Shown in pieces: positions 10,934 to 15,841 of a stretch of 64,000 bases of DNA. Under the pieces are notes generated by a model, which saw only the letters and a program-made list of their open reading frames with translations, searched no databases and was not told the origin of the DNA. The translations under genes were made by a program, and so were the position numbers. Source of the stretch: Synechococcus sp. BL107 (GTDB lineage: Bacteria > Cyanobacteriota > Cyanobacteriia > PCC-6307 > Cyanobiaceae); assembly GCF_000153805.1 (NCBI RefSeq), contig NZ_DS022298.1:1430827-1494826 (forward strand), read 5' to 3'. The number at the start of each line of letters is the position of its first letter. The first letter of the stretch is position 1.

Positions 10934-11806
10934 GTGCGCAACAGTCTGACGGCATGGGCGTTTTTGTTGCCGGCACTGGTTTTAATCAGCCTGTCGGTTT
11001 TGATTCCAGCTCTGATGGCTTTGGTGATGAGTTTCACCGCCACGGGACTGGATGTCAGTGAACCGCTTCGTTTTATCGGTTTTGCCAATTTTCAACGGCT
11101 TCTGGCTGATCCGATGGCACGACAAGTGATGCTCACCACTTTTTTGTATCTCGTTGGTGTTGTGCCGCCGATTGTGTTGGGTGCATTGGCTTTGGCGGTG
11201 TTGGTGAATCAAAAGCTGCCTGGGCAGACGTTTTTGCGCGGGGCGTTTTACACCCCAGTTTTGGTTTCGATCGTTGTGGCAGCCATTGCCTTTCGCTGGC
11301 TCTATGCCGAAAACGGTTTGATCAATGGATGGTTTGCCGCTGTTTTTGGTGACACGTTCTCGCCAATTGGGTTTCTAACGGTTCCCCATTTGGCGCTTCC
11401 CGCCGTGATGCTTGTGACCCTGTGGAAGGGCTTGGGGTACTACATGGTGATTTTTTTGGCGGGCCTACAGGGCATCCCAAAAGAGCTCTACGAAGCTGCC
11501 GAGCTCGATGGCAGTGAGGGTTGGCGAAAGCACCTCGACATCACGCTTCCACTGATGCGTCCTTACGTCACCCTCGTCGCTGTGGTGTCGTCGATCGCTG
11601 CAACCAAGGTTTTTGAGGAAGTGTTTCTGATGACGCAAGGGGGGCCGGCTGATGCCACACGAACCATCGTTTATTACGTCTACGACCAGGCTTTTTCAGA
11701 ATTGGAAATCAGTTACGCCTGCACCTTGGGTTTGGCTCTGTTCTTCATGGTGATGCTGTTAACCCTGGTGAGGTTGGTGCTGGCGGGCGACCGATCCCTC
11801 ATCTAA
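10934..11806 (+). CDS. Sugar-type ABC transporter permease, isolated
   Basis: This inner membrane permease is of the MalF/UgpA class, about 290 residues with six hydrophobic segments and the ATPase-contact EAA motif (PKELYEAAELDGSEG). No binding protein, second permease or ATPase is next to it; neighbours are aroB and purK. Start is uncertain: GTG at 10934 fits a short N-terminus (RNSLTAWAFLLPALV), while the ATG at 10862 would overlap the divergent aroB start. It is a different protein from GgtC in this window. The substrate is unknown. Confidence 0.85.
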   Translation: MRNSLTAWAFLLPALVLISLSVLIPALMALVMSFTATGLDVSEPLRFIGFANFQRLLADPMARQVMLTTFLYLVGVVPPIVLGALALAVLVNQKLPGQTFLRGAFYTPVLVSIVVAAIAFRWLYAENGLINGWFAAVFGDTFSPIGFLTVPHLALPAVMLVTLWKGLGYYMVIFLAGLQGIPKELYEAAELDGSEGWRKHLDITLPLMRPYVTLVAVVSSIAATKVFEEVFLMTQGGPADATRTIVYYVYDQAFSELEISYACTLGLALFFMVMLLTLVRLVLAGDRSLI

Positions 11807-11861
11807 GGGTGCATTTGCCCAAGGGAGTGGCAAGCTGCCAATAAGCAGTGCTGAGCCAGGG

Positions 11862-13040
11862 ATGTCCACGTCGGACACGATGATCGGTGTAGTGGGGGGC
11901 GGTCAGCTGGCGAGGATGCTGGTGCAAGCAGCTTCCGCACGGTCGATACCGATCGCAGTTCAAACTTCGTCTGCGAGTGATCCGGCTGCTGATGCTGCGG
12001 CCCGCATTGTGGAAGCTGATCCCCGTGATGTGGCAGGAACCCGCGAGCTGGTGGAGGGTTGTGAAGGAATCACCTTTGAAAATGAGTGGGTCAACATCGA
12101 TGCGTTGATTCCCCTCGAACAACAGGGCGTTCGCTTTCGTCCTGCGTTGGCGGCTCTTGCTCCACTGGTTGACAAGTTGTCTCAGCGAACGTTGTTGGAC
12201 GAATTAGCCATACCCAGTCCACCTTGGTGCCCCCTAAGTCTTATTTCTCCAGCGCAGCCATCTCTGCCGCCGGGCTGGAATTTCCCGGTGATGGCGAAAG
12301 CAGCCCGTGGCGGATACGACGGGAAGGGAACGATTGTTTTGGAAAATATTGATGCTCTGGCTCAGTTACTCCGATCGGTCGACATTTCTGATTGGCTTTT
12401 AGAAACGTGGGTGGATTATGAGCGCGAGCTTGCCCTGGTGGTGAGTCGAGATGCCAAGGGTCGTCTTCGGAGCTTTCCACTCGTGGAAACGCACCAACAT
12501 GATCAAGTTTGCGACTGGGTCTTGGCACCAGCAGGAGTGGATCAGGCTGTCGAAGCTCTCGCCTACAACGTTGCGGCGTCCTTGCTTACAAAATTGAATT
12601 ACGTGGGTGTGTTGGCCCTTGAATTCTTTTATGGACCTGCCGGATTACAGGTGAATGAAATTGCGCCTCGTACCCATAACTCCGGTCATTTCTCAATCGA
12701 AGCTTGTACGAGCAGTCAGTTTGATCAACAGGTGTGCATCGCAGCTGGGCTTCCAGTGCCAACGCCGGAACTGAGAAGTGATGGCGCATTGATGGTGAAT
12801 CTTCTCGGCCTTAATCCAAGCCAGGCTGCCCCGCTTGAGCAGCGGTTGAGCGCGCTCCGTGAAATCCCCAATGCTCACCTTCATTGGTATGGAAAATCAC
12901 CGGAGACCCCAGGCCGCAAACTCGGCCACATCACTGTGTTGTTGAACGCTAGTGATGCAGAACATTGTGAACTCCAAGCGAAGGACGTCTTAAACGTTGT
13001 GCGAGGAATATGGCCCGTGTTCCCCTCAGTTCAGGACTAA
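11862..13040 (+). CDS. purK: 5-(carboxyamino)imidazole ribonucleotide synthase
   Basis: PurK carboxylates AIR with ATP and bicarbonate in purine biosynthesis. The 392 residues contain GVVGGGQLARML at the start, the ATP-grasp core (VMAKAARGGYDGKGT) and the C-terminal EIAPRTHNSGHFSIEAC box, all typical of the family. The gene is alone on its strand here; purE is not adjacent. A 6S RNA-like element follows its stop codon directly. Confidence 0.97.
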   Translation: MSTSDTMIGVVGGGQLARMLVQAASARSIPIAVQTSSASDPAADAAARIVEADPRDVAGTRELVEGCEGITFENEWVNIDALIPLEQQGVRFRPALAALAPLVDKLSQRTLLDELAIPSPPWCPLSLISPAQPSLPPGWNFPVMAKAARGGYDGKGTIVLENIDALAQLLRSVDISDWLLETWVDYERELALVVSRDAKGRLRSFPLVETHQHDQVCDWVLAPAGVDQAVEALAYNVAASLLTKLNYVGVLALEFFYGPAGLQVNEIAPRTHNSGHFSIEACTSSQFDQQVCIAAGLPVPTPELRSDGALMVNLLGLNPSQAAPLEQRLSALREIPNAHLHWYGKSPETPGRKLGHITVLLNASDAEHCELQAKDVLNVVRGIWPVFPSVQD

Positions 13041-13060
13041 ACTGTTTATTGAACTGCTGT

Positions 13061-13232
13061 GTTGGTGAAGGCCTTTTCTAGTGCTCTGATCTGACTCTCT
13101 TTCGACTTGGGGAGGCTGTCGTGACGGTGACGTAAACCGGCCTTGTAGCTGGAAACGAAGCCCCACTTTGACTCCCCTTCTGGTTAACCCCAGGTCGACC
13201 ACAATCGGTCACACGGCATGGTGGTTCACCCT
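13061..13232 (+). ncRNA. ssaA: 6S RNA (ssaA) candidate
   Basis: The non-coding gap after purK folds into one long irregular hairpin. Outer helix GGTGAA (13064-13069) pairs with TTCACC (13225-13230). Next, TGC (13082-13084) pairs with GCA (13216-13218), and TGATC (13087-13091) with GGTCA (13207-13211). An inner helix GACTTGGGG (13104-13112) pairs with CCCCAGGTC (13188-13196). A terminal stem CCGGC/GCTGG closes the tip. A long rod with bulges is the hallmark of 6S RNA, which traps RNA polymerase, and I recall cyanobacterial ssaA being found beside purK. Ends are estimated from the fold, and no promoter was identified with confidence. Confidence 0.7.
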
Positions 13233-13266
13233 TATCACTCAACCGCTTGACGACTCGGCTTTGCAC

Positions 13267-13560
13267 CTAAGGCCGATGACGTTCCAGCGCACTTTGCAGC
13301 TGAGATTCCTCAAGATTGGTCACGATGAACACTTCTTGGACACTGCTCCCTTTCCGCGCGACCAGCTTGTAGCCGCCGCGGATGGTTGTGGATACGCGTA
13401 ATTGCAGGGACTGACTTCGCCCCCTGACGCGATTAATCACAGCAGGGGTGATGGTTTGGATTCCTTTTTCCCCAGCCAGGGATTTCAACCAAGGGATTAA
13501 ACCCTCGACATAGGTGCTGTGGGTAATAACGACCCGTCCCAAACCTGAATCAAAACCCAA
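13267..13560 (-). CDS. DUF2103 family protein
   Basis: This is a 97-residue protein without signal or membrane segment. The pattern VITHSTYVEGLIPWLKSLA ... ITPAVINRVRGRS ... GGYKLVARKGSSVQEVFIVT matches the DUF2103 family, common in cyanobacteria. Its function is unknown; the many basic residues would suit nucleic-acid or phosphate binding, which is speculation. The start is a TTG at 13560 or 13542. The 3' end lies about 35 bp from the 6S RNA-like element on the other strand. Confidence 0.75.
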   Translation of the reverse strand: MGFDSGLGRVVITHSTYVEGLIPWLKSLAGEKGIQTITPAVINRVRGRSQSLQLRVSTTIRGGYKLVARKGSSVQEVFIVTNLEESQLQSALERHRP

Positions 13561-13616
13561 GAACTGGTGAAAGCTAGCGGGAACGGCTATGCCGAAGAGA
13601 GGTGCTCTCGGTCGTG

Positions 13617-13844
13617 ATGTTGAAATCCGTCGATGCTGTGCATATTGCTGTTCACGGACCTCTGACGAAGGCCTGTGGCCCTAAGACGCGAATGCTGACT
13701 GCGGAAGTTCATGGCCCAGAGGTTCGGGGTCTTGCACTGTGTCCAGGTCGTGTCGTTCGGTACGTGTTCGATGCACGGAACGAACACTTCAAAACCATGG
13801 ATCTTCTCAGGCTGGCAACATCGACCCGTCTGCCTGCGGCGTGA
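13617..13844 (+). CDS. Small hypothetical protein
   Basis: This is a protein of about 75 residues (LKSVDAVHIAVHGPLTKACG at the start, ending RLATSTRLPAA). No family is recognised. It fills the gap between DUF2103 and clpS exactly, ending 1 bp from the clpS stop, and its frame is free of stops over its full length, which favours a real gene. GTG codons at 13602 and 13614 are alternative starts; a GAAGAGAGG purine run lies just before them. Confidence 0.5.
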   Translation: MLKSVDAVHIAVHGPLTKACGPKTRMLTAEVHGPEVRGLALCPGRVVRYVFDARNEHFKTMDLLRLATSTRLPAA

Positions 13845-13845
13845 C

Positions 13846-14142
13846 TTAACAGCGATCTAAGGGAGCCATGGTGAGTCCCTCCGTTTGCAGTTGTTGGTGA
13901 TACAGCTCAGCTTGCTCAAGCGGCCCACGCCACACCTCGGCAGATCCCTCACCATCAATGCGATGGGCCAAACCCCAGGCCTTGTCTTCGTCCATGCCGG
14001 GAATAATCTTTCGAAGACAATCCACGACATGTTGGAAGGTGTTGACGTCGTCGTCGAGAACGATGACTTTGGCTTCCGGATAGCGCTGAGTGGTTTTTTG
14101 CCGCTCCAGAAGCGTCGAAGATGAAGGGCTGGAGCTGGTCAT
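13846..14142 (-). CDS. clpS: ATP-dependent Clp protease adaptor ClpS
   Basis: ClpS delivers N-degron substrates to the Clp protease. The conserved core is [20 protein letters not shown] and [20 protein letters not shown] chose the ATG at 14142 (98 residues); the open frame runs on to 14361 but that extension runs antisense to petN and has no ClpS similarity. The leader before the core is Ser-rich (SSSPSSS). clpP lies 2.4 kb away, beyond petN and psb29. Confidence 0.9.
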
Positions 14143-14212
14143 GACAGTAATTTTCAATGGAGCTGGAGCAAACGCAAACCTAGGTAGGATTTTTGAAACA
14201 GACCTGGATTCA

Positions 14213-14314
14213 GTGTTATTCACCGTCGCCTGGGCATCTCTTGCCGCCATGTTCAGTTTCTCAATCGCGATGGTGGTGTGGGGTCGTAACGGTGACGGCA
14301 CACTGAAGTTCTGA
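14213..14314 (+). CDS. petN: Cytochrome b6-f complex subunit 8 (PetN), 33 residues, GTG start
   Basis: This tiny thylakoid membrane protein has a single transmembrane helix followed by [17 protein letters not shown]. The stretch MVVWGRNG is the PetN signature and lies at the usual place, near the C-terminus. The start is the GTG at 14213 ([17 protein letters not shown]). A longer frame back to 14090 exists but runs antisense over clpS and is not PetN-like. It stabilises the cytochrome b6-f dimer between the photosystems. It is divergent from clpS and followed closely by another short membrane protein. Confidence 0.88.
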
Positions 14315-14321
14315 ACGCACC

Positions 14322-14471
14322 GTGCTTTCAGATTCACCGTTGTTGAGCCAAGCCTTAGCAATAGCTGCAGCGTTTTTACTGGTTTTTGTCAGTGTTTCGG
14401 TGATTTATCTCTCCGCTATTGAATGGCGAGATCGTCGTCGTAGAAAAGTTCCTTCTCGCTCTAGCCGTTGA
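14322..14471 (+). CDS. 49-residue single-pass membrane protein
   Basis: A GTG at 14322, 7 bp after petN, opens a 49-residue frame. Residues 8-32 are a hydrophobic helix (SQALAIAAAFLLVFVSVSVI), followed by a strongly basic tail (WRDRRRRKVPSRSSR), so a cytoplasmic C-terminus is expected. Its TGA overlaps a TTG that could begin the next frame. No family is recognised. The position, spacing and helix-plus-basic-tail design favour a real gene in a petN transcript. Confidence 0.6.
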   Translation: MLSDSPLLSQALAIAAAFLLVFVSVSVIYLSAIEWRDRRRRKVPSRSSR

Positions 14472-14476
14472 CGTTG

Positions 14477-15841
14477 ATGGTCCCCCGTTGTTTTCGGGAC
14501 CATCCGATCACAACGGCTTTTATTGTCCTGTTGAGCGCAGCCTCTGGGGCGAGACTCCTTACGTCCGGTCGTGCGCTTGCGCCCAGGTTGTCCGATCAGG
14601 GGAGTCTGCTTTTTTTTCTTCGGGAATCTCGGTTAATCCAGAGCTTCAACGTTGATTCCGCAGAGTTGCCCCCAGATGTTTGGCAAAGGCGTCTTGGCCT
14701 TAAAGCGGCAGCCAAACGATGGCAGTCATCCAAAGGACATCGCTGGTGGATGGTGTGGCTTCAAGATGGATCACCGTTATTGGTGCTTCATCGGACAAAA
14801 GCCAGTGAGCCTTCAAGGGTTTCATCGACGTTCCCAGATGTCGAACTTTTGTTCGCAGACGAACTTCATCGAAAAAGCTTTTTCTCGAAATCTCCTTCCC
14901 GAATTTCAACGCGTTCCATCCTTGAAGAAGACTGCATTGATCGGCTCACCAGATCCCCTGCAGTTGCTTGGAATCCCTCGGGTTTATCGGCCATCGCAGG
15001 ACCCCTTGCCTTTGCGTTGAATAGCGGTTCTCATGGCTGCCTGAGCTTGACGTTGGATGGACGTCAACGATTGCGCCTCGATGGATCGGTCTCGTCAAGA
15101 CCGCTGTCATCAGCGCCAAGGTCCTTAAGACGTCCCCCTGGAATTGAATCCGGGTTTCAGGCGTTCGTTGATGCCACCCCAATGAACAATCGGCTTGCTC
15201 TCCATTGGCAAGGCGCTTCGACGAAGCCGCTCTTCTCCTCACTTCTTCAACGCCGATTGATTTCGGATGCGATTGAAAAAACCTACGGCCTCACTCCAGA
15301 TTTTCAGGCTGCATGGTTAGGAGCCCCTTTGGATTTAAAGGCTCAACTCAGAAACGACGGCCCTTTTAAGGCATCAATTCAGCTCAGCGTTGTATTCCAT
15401 GCTCGGCATGCTGAAACACTTCAGACGGGTTTGACATCCGTGGCCTCAAATCTTGAACTGCGAGGTTTGCGGCCTCAGGTGAGTCCGTCGGCTGCTGGAA
15501 CCAACGGTCAATCCACAGTTCTCATGTGGAAAGGCCAAGGACAATCTGTTCTTGGACGATGGTCTGTGGACTCGACGACGCCAAATCAGATCTCCCTTCA
15601 ACTATCCCTGGGTGGAGCGTCAGTTTCTCGTCTTCCGTCTTCAATCCAGAGGCCAACCTCAGGATTGCGCATCCGTTTTGACGCCAAGCAGCTACGAGAT
15701 TTGGGCTGGTTGAAGGCAACATGGCCCAGGTCGGTGCAGCAAGCAGGCCAAGGGGAGCTTCTGCTTAAGCCGATGCTGGGCCACAGATCTGGACAAGCAG
15801 AGACCTGGTACTGGCTGAAAGGTCAGCTTTCACTGCGTTGA
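14477..15841 (+). CDS. Large hypothetical protein with N-terminal membrane anchor
   Basis: A protein of about 454 residues with a hydrophobic N-terminus (PITTAFIVLLSAASGARLL) that should act as signal or anchor. The rest is soluble, rich in Ser, Leu and Arg, with beta-type alternation and no recognised catalytic motif. It resembles in layout the cyanobacterial DUF3352-type envelope proteins, but I cannot assign it. A TTG at 14468 is an alternative start that overlaps the stop of the preceding small gene. It is convergent with psb29, overlapping its end by 19 bp. Confidence 0.75.
   Translation: MVPRCFRDHPITTAFIVLLSAASGARLLTSGRALAPRLSDQGSLLFFLRESRLIQSFNVDSAELPPDVWQRRLGLKAAAKRWQSSKGHRWWMVWLQDGSPLLVLHRTKASEPSRVSSTFPDVELLFADELHRKSFFSKSPSRISTRSILEEDCIDRLTRSPAVAWNPSGLSAIAGPLAFALNSGSHGCLSLTLDGRQRLRLDGSVSSRPLSSAPRSLRRPPGIESGFQAFVDATPMNNRLALHWQGASTKPLFSSLLQRRLISDAIEKTYGLTPDFQAAWLGAPLDLKAQLRNDGPFKASIQLSVVFHARHAETLQTGLTSVASNLELRGLRPQVSPSAAGTNGQSTVLMWKGQGQSVLGRWSVDSTTPNQISLQLSLGGASVSRLPSSIQRPTSGLRIRFDAKQLRDLGWLKATWPRSVQQAGQGELLLKPMLGHRSGQAETWYWLKGQLSLR

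Follow-up and report, generated by a model that had tools for sequence, protein, structure and literature searches.

A 6S RNA gene behind purK in Synechococcus sp. BL107, with a putative promoter box on the purK stop codon and a candidate collapse helix

Introduction

6S RNA acts generally to restrain the housekeeping RNA polymerase. A small RNA named Yfr7 has been reported from four marine strains, where it follows purK, and Northern blots revealed it in marine Synechococcus and Prochlorococcus, with a length of 175-185 nt in four Synechococcus strains (passages of PMC1242208). In later papers it is referred to as a 6S homologue (excerpts of PMC2662882 and PMC2190773). For the 6S RNA of Synechocystis, binding and inhibition of E. 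coli RNA polymerase as well as synthesis of product RNA (pRNA) have been reported in vitro, sigma-factor recruitment was affected in a deletion strain, and the RNA was tied to the recovery from nitrogen starvation (excerpts of PMC5721685). In E. coli 6S RNA the synthesis of pRNA starts at U44 and release goes along with an extended 3'-bubble hairpin of 9 bp, whereas the 6S RNAs Bacillus 6S-1 and Aquifex 6S are described as rearranging via a collapse helix (passages of PMC8876501).

We have analyzed the corresponding locus in a stretch of 64,000 nucleotides from Synechococcus sp. BL107, referred to as the window in the following. An initial annotation made from the letters alone had placed a conserved-looking 6S RNA fold directly after purK, in a non-coding gap of 226 bp.

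Results

Identity and conserved position of the 6S RNA gene

The 226-bp gap is real, extending from the purK stop at 13040 to the end of a minus-strand DUF2103 gene at 13267 (Table 1). Its assignment to 6S RNA was borne out by a search against all of Rfam with cmscan, in which RF00013 (6S) matched the plus strand at 13048-13231 with 98.0 bits and an E value of 2e-18, covering positions 1-187 of the 187 in the model. This covariance-model comparison had been proposed as a check together with the annotation, and the score is more than twice the gathering score of 46.4 bits. With the Rfam 6S model no second copy was found in the whole genome at E <= 10. We consider it virtually certain that the stretch behind purK is a 6S RNA, orthologous to Yfr7/6Sa.

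The RNA resembles Yfr7/6Sa (SsaA) of marine and freshwater cyanobacteria in its location downstream of purK, its strand, its central bubble and its closing stem, and its predicted size falls within the range of 175-185 nt given in passages of PMC1242208; nothing sets it apart from them as a kind. As Yfr7 was described downstream of purK and later named a 6S homologue, the kind of RNA, its position after purK and its structure are already known. E. coli 6S RNA (ssrS, RF00013) matches the same model over its full length, and its P2 arm and the region of the pRNA start align with those of the window; it differs in a score of 139.8 bits against the 98.0 of the window and in the start base, U44 in E. 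coli and a C in the window. While E. coli 6S RNA releases the enzyme via a hairpin in the 3' bubble (passages of PMC8876501), the candidate in the window is a collapse helix.

Table 1. Features at the junction of purK and the 6S RNA gene. Positions are those of the window, except in the last line.
Feature	Position	Strand	Remarks
purK (ATP-grasp, PurK_C)	11862..13040	+	Pfam PF02222 4.7e-46, PF17769 1.3e-16
purK stop codon TAA	13038-13040	+	directly upstream of 6S
Putative -10 box TAAACT	13038..13043	+	opens with the purK stop TAA; conserved TAnnnT spacing in relatives
6S RNA (ssaA/ssrS, Yfr7 orthologue), predicted	13051..13231	+	RF00013; both ends uncertain by several nt
Closing stem, 5' arm	13050..13066	+	pairs with 13213-13228; Rfam structure; both-sided changes in 10/17 pairs, 59 sequences
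Predicted pRNA template	13082..13095	+	templating would begin near C13095, the counterpart of E. coli U44 in the same covariance model
Helix P2, 5' arm, beside central bubble	13087..13092	+	pairs with 13192-13197; Rfam structure
Alternative (collapse) helix, 5' strand	13102..13112	+	distal 5' central bubble into next helix; pairs with 13188-13198
Apical arm and terminal loop	13109..13177	+	13109-13127/13160-13177, 13132-13133/13155-13156, 13137-13141/13148-13152
Alternative helix, 3' strand	13188..13198	+	common to P2 3' arm
Closing stem, 3' arm	13213..13228	+	Rfam structure, covariation
DUF2103 gene, convergent, outside the RNA	13267..13560	-	Pfam PF09876 6.9e-18
G057 junction L120 (G057:C1:1321800-1327800)	purK stop 2717-2719; DUF2103 match end 2918

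The 5' end at about 13051 was set from the spacing to the putative -10 box. The span of 13061-13232 in the initial annotation thus has the right location, but it starts too late, omitting 13049-13060, which make up the greater part of the closing stem's 5' arm.

Among 118 genomes, a 6S match at E <= 0.01 was obtained in 104 (own genome included), with 103 over the cut-off. In the window's own family purK lies just upstream on the same strand in all 59 matches (window included), and a downstream, convergent DUF2103 gene is seen in 27 of the 59 stretches as fetched. For the 45 matches in other families, purK is found upstream in 16, elsewhere in the stretch in one, and in 28 not within the stretch that was fetched.

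Some observations concern the surroundings of the gene. A phage origin was rejected, as the region 11800-14500 had no megablast match in 50,697 phage records. A simple scan of 12700-13700 yielded a single minus-strand site resembling a terminator and no intrinsic terminator on the plus strand, including 13232-13266, although the convergent gene end is only 35 bp beyond the 6S RNA. Further downstream, petN (PF03742; plus strand, 14090-14314) lies opposite the 5' part of a ClpS-containing frame on the minus strand (13846-14361), whose listed TTG start is probably too far upstream.

Conservation of the 6S fold

For the analysis of covariation all 59 own-family matches (window included) were aligned with MAFFT, blind to structure, and the Rfam fold of the window was laid on the alignment. 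Both-sided, compensatory changes are present in 23 of the 51 Rfam pairs, compared with a mean of 13.4 (sd 1.6) after shuffling, and none of 500 shuffles reached as many; their absence from relatives had been named in the initial annotation as something that would refute it. In the same sequences 81.4% of the cells are paired, versus 38-51% with slid partners. In the window's own RNA, nine of these 51 pairs are non-standard.

The closing stem, for which 15 unbroken pairs are possible between 13050-13064 and 13214-13228 (six of them G-U), supplies ten of the 23 pairs with both-sided changes. In the helices of the apical arm such changes are found in 8/12, 2/5, 0/2 and 3/5 pairs. Closing stem, large central bubble and terminal stem-loop are thus kept up by compensatory change within the family. 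The second helix of the Rfam structure also includes 13082-13085 with 13198-13201, and the six inner pairs of P2 are invariant in 59/59 sequences, with no double change in P2 within the family.

Folding energy was rejected as evidence. The span 13061-13232 folds no better than chance (z -0.90, with 36 of 200 shuffles equally stable), 13051-13231 yields a z of -1.61 with 10 of 200 shuffles equally stable, and the reverse strand is likewise no better than chance at a z of +0.61. The long bulged hairpin that had been read from the letters therefore stands as a 6S fold, raised above chance by its covariance score and by covarying pairs among relatives, but not by its thermodynamic stability, which is within chance.

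A helix competing with P2

The initial annotation had further pointed to a 9-bp helix with one wobble. Such a helix exists, formed by UCGACUUGG with CCAGGUCGA, and in the window it is the core of a longer competing helix between 13102-13112 and 13188-13198 that comprises 11 bp with one wobble. Note that the gap holds three other 9-bp helices with 3-5 wobbles each, so that equating UCGACUUGG/CCAGGUCGA with the annotated helix is an identification of our own. Its 3' strand is also that of P2 (13087-13092/13192-13197), and the two are therefore mutually exclusive. The annotated helix probably belongs neither to the 6S consensus fold nor to the ground state, and is instead a competing helix similar to the 'central bubble collapse helix' of Bacillus 6S-1. 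The likeness, compared by description, lies in the 3' strand of P2, which pairs with the distal part of the 5' bubble, and in a small hairpin in the 3' bubble (passages of PMC8876501). Unlike the Bacillus 6S-1 helix, the one in the window is a computed candidate. Literature joining 'collapse helix' and 6S RNA concerned only Bacillus by title, PMC8876501 makes no mention of cyanobacteria, and in the literature we found no description of a collapse helix in the 6S RNA of the window's family.

Base-pairing probabilities were calculated for each RNA in the free form and with the 14 template bases 13082-13095 masked to imitate a bound product RNA. The value assigned to the competing helix was the highest probability of any one base in 13096-13108 to pair within 13190-13200, P2 was treated likewise, and the threshold was p >= 0.5. 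In the free RNAs of the family P2 reached this threshold in 48/59, and the competing helix did so in 5/59 (window included). With the template masked, the competing helix reached it in 52/59, and when in addition the distal bubble was shuffled it did so in 2, 3, 4, 3 and 3 of 59. In these computations the opening of P2 thus leaves its 3' strand able to pair with the distal part of the 5' bubble in most of the family. The seven exceptions in the family are G001, G008, G044, G049, G053, G069 and G071. In other families the competing helix reached the threshold in 12/45 RNAs, versus 1-4 with shuffled and 1-3 with swapped bubbles (swaps that changed the length were skipped), and P2 attained p >= 0.5 in the free RNA in only 4/45.

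In the window's own free RNA the 11-bp collapse helix is favored, with p 0.98 versus 0.04 for P2. With this helix predominant, the open bubble would be concealed unless P2 is stabilized by the enzyme or the cell. RNAalifold, applied to the 59 sequences, likewise chose the first five pairs of the competing helix over P2, together with a CUGG/CCAG hairpin in the 3' bubble.

These results have to be weighed against the possibility that the RNA is a 6S RNA, but that the UCGACUUGG/CCAGGUCGA helix is a by-product of sequence conserved for polymerase contacts or pRNA initiation and does not serve as a release switch. The 9-bp core is paired in 96.2% of the cells, but its strands hardly vary, and among its nine pairs there is no double change in 59 sequences, as would be expected of such a by-product; nor is the helix general in other cyanobacterial families, where the 12 of 45 noted above possess it. 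This reading is opposed by the contrast between 52/59 in the native RNAs and 2-4/59 with shuffled bubbles, by the smaller excess over shuffled and swapped bubbles outside the family, and by the helix of the same layout that supports release in Bacillus 6S-1 (passages of PMC8876501). We assign the by-product explanation a little less than an even chance, and put release of the polymerase through the collapse helix at even odds.

A putative -10 box on the purK stop codon

The hexamer TAAACT, whose first half terminates purK, is well placed to serve the 6S RNA as a promoter element. In 59/59 own-family genomes a TAnnnT motif begins 6-17 nt before the base that aligns with 13051, and in 58/59 it is located at -13 to -11 from the predicted 5' end; the boxes of G049 at -15 and -10 belong to the former count and fall outside the latter. 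Of the offsets between -70 and +4, two alone had TAnnnT in six or more genomes, namely -13 (23 genomes) and -12 (32 genomes). In other families 13/45 matches are without TAnnnT in the same interval, and for several of these a box is visible by eye slightly farther upstream, which was not counted.

The box starts with the purK stop codon in 38/59 own-family genomes. In the remaining 21 the stop lies elsewhere (upstream of the box in 18, downstream of its start in G032, G037 and G066), and the TAnnnT box is still kept. The third base of the box is A or G in 57/58 own-family genomes, which is what a TAA or TAG stop demands, and boxes of other families carry T and C as well. Note that the figure of 38/59 was obtained by scanning for purK stops from early in the blast match, whereas the synteny count extended from the end of that match, and that the two methods differ in some genomes; in G033 the scan from early in the match meets an earlier in-frame TAG. 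As a separate observation, the purK frame of G037 (L071, 6S start 1981 in 6S orientation) appears to enter the 6S RNA by 40-50 nt, which is either real or an assembly frameshift.

A simple scan found no sigma-70 consensus promoter on either strand of 12700-13700, and a good -35 box is not evident across the relatives, where the best match has 4 of 6 bases in 2/58. From the conserved spacing we nevertheless consider TAAACT a quite probable -10 box of the 6S promoter, in which case we infer that the hexamer is under a double constraint, as promoter element and as stop codon. A stop codon that doubles as a 6S -10 box was not found in the literature, as judged from titles and the first parts of abstracts.

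According to a different explanation the RNA is a mere 3' part of the purK transcript, a structured tail without 6S function. The 6S RNA begins only 7 nt past the purK stop by the Rfam boundary, the lack of a good -35 box would fit such a tail, and in high-light Prochlorococcus a Yfr7 signal of about 300 nt occurs beside one of about 200 nt (passages of PMC1242208). We nevertheless regard this explanation as highly improbable, given the full-length 6S score, the TAnnnT box that persists in the 21 genomes with the purK stop elsewhere, and the single Northern band of 175-185 nt in four marine Synechococcus strains (passages of PMC1242208). Still less credible is a coding gene on the minus strand, where an open frame of 62 aa exists at 13078-13266 and hypothetical genes, PMT0670 in MIT 9313 and SYNW1307 in WH 8102, were once annotated opposite Yfr7, since the frame is not kept across the 59 own-family sequences (in 45 its distance to the 3' end of the 6S RNA does not keep the window's frame, in 14 its stop is lost, and at least 50 open codons remain in only 17), the RNA pairs covary, and passages of PMC1242208 give the expression of genes of the PMT0670/SYNW1307 type as undetected.

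Genomes without a 6S match

A 6S match was missing in 14/118 genomes, 13 of them among the 72 of the window's family. Ten of these 13 also lack a purK match at E 1e-20, so that incomplete assemblies are the probable reason for the missing locus. In G018 purK extends as far as the contig end, in G054 a contig end cuts through the 6S RNA, and in G096, from another family, purK is found in pieces on two contigs and the only 6S match has 12.2 bits.

The situation is different in G057, where purK and the DUF2103 gene are both present, about 200 bp apart, without a 6S RNA between them. This genome is 95% complete and yielded no Rfam 6S match at E <= 10; the best E value in a BLAST search with the 6S RNA of the window was 1.06, and a model trained on the 59 relatives found no 6S RNA among the 150 of 307 candidates that were scored. 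Note that the positive genomes of the latter search, G036 and G042, were part of the training set of the model and hence match by construction. With filters off, the best match in the purK stretch of G057 was a 37-nt hairpin upstream of purK with 17.8 bits, found on both strands and skipping nearly all of the 6S model; it was taken for a chance inverted repeat and rejected as a 6S RNA. From the sequence, G057 seems to be without a 6S RNA, possibly through natural loss.

Discussion

Taken in order, the features of the locus suggest the following course of events. RNA polymerase holoenzyme would start at about 13051, from a promoter that has no clear -35 box and a -10 element, TAAACT, overlapping the purK stop. 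The resulting RNA of about 180 nt would form a rod whose central bubble mimics an open promoter, so that, in analogy to other 6S RNAs, the housekeeping holoenzyme is proposed to bind it instead of DNA. Once nucleotides are plentiful, the enzyme would copy a short pRNA toward the 5' end of the RNA. The start is predicted at about C13095 from the alignment with the E. coli RNA, and this base is invariant in the 59 own-family sequences. Copying would open P2 and free its AGGUCGA strand, which could then join UCGACUU from the distal bubble in the collapse helix, and the RNA would leave the enzyme. Of these elements, our analysis shows what the RNA is, that its fold, its synteny and a -10-like box are conserved, and that the switch is feasible by computation, whereas polymerase binding, product RNA and release are here transferred by analogy to the 6S RNA of the window.

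The most far-reaching interpretation has two parts, that the hexamer serves as the -10 box of the 6S promoter and in most of the sampled species of this picocyanobacterial family at the same time as the purK stop, and that the RNA is a two-state switch of the Bacillus type and not of the E. coli hairpin type, tilted toward the collapsed and more readily released state in the species of the window and in G006, G040, G062 and G064. To both parts holding together we assign a probability of roughly 0.4.

If these details hold, purK and the 6S RNA would be unable to evolve independently at their junction, and the polymerase would be released by the route that has been described for Bacillus and Aquifex (passages of PMC8876501). 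The apparent absence of the 6S RNA from G057 would offer a natural comparison.
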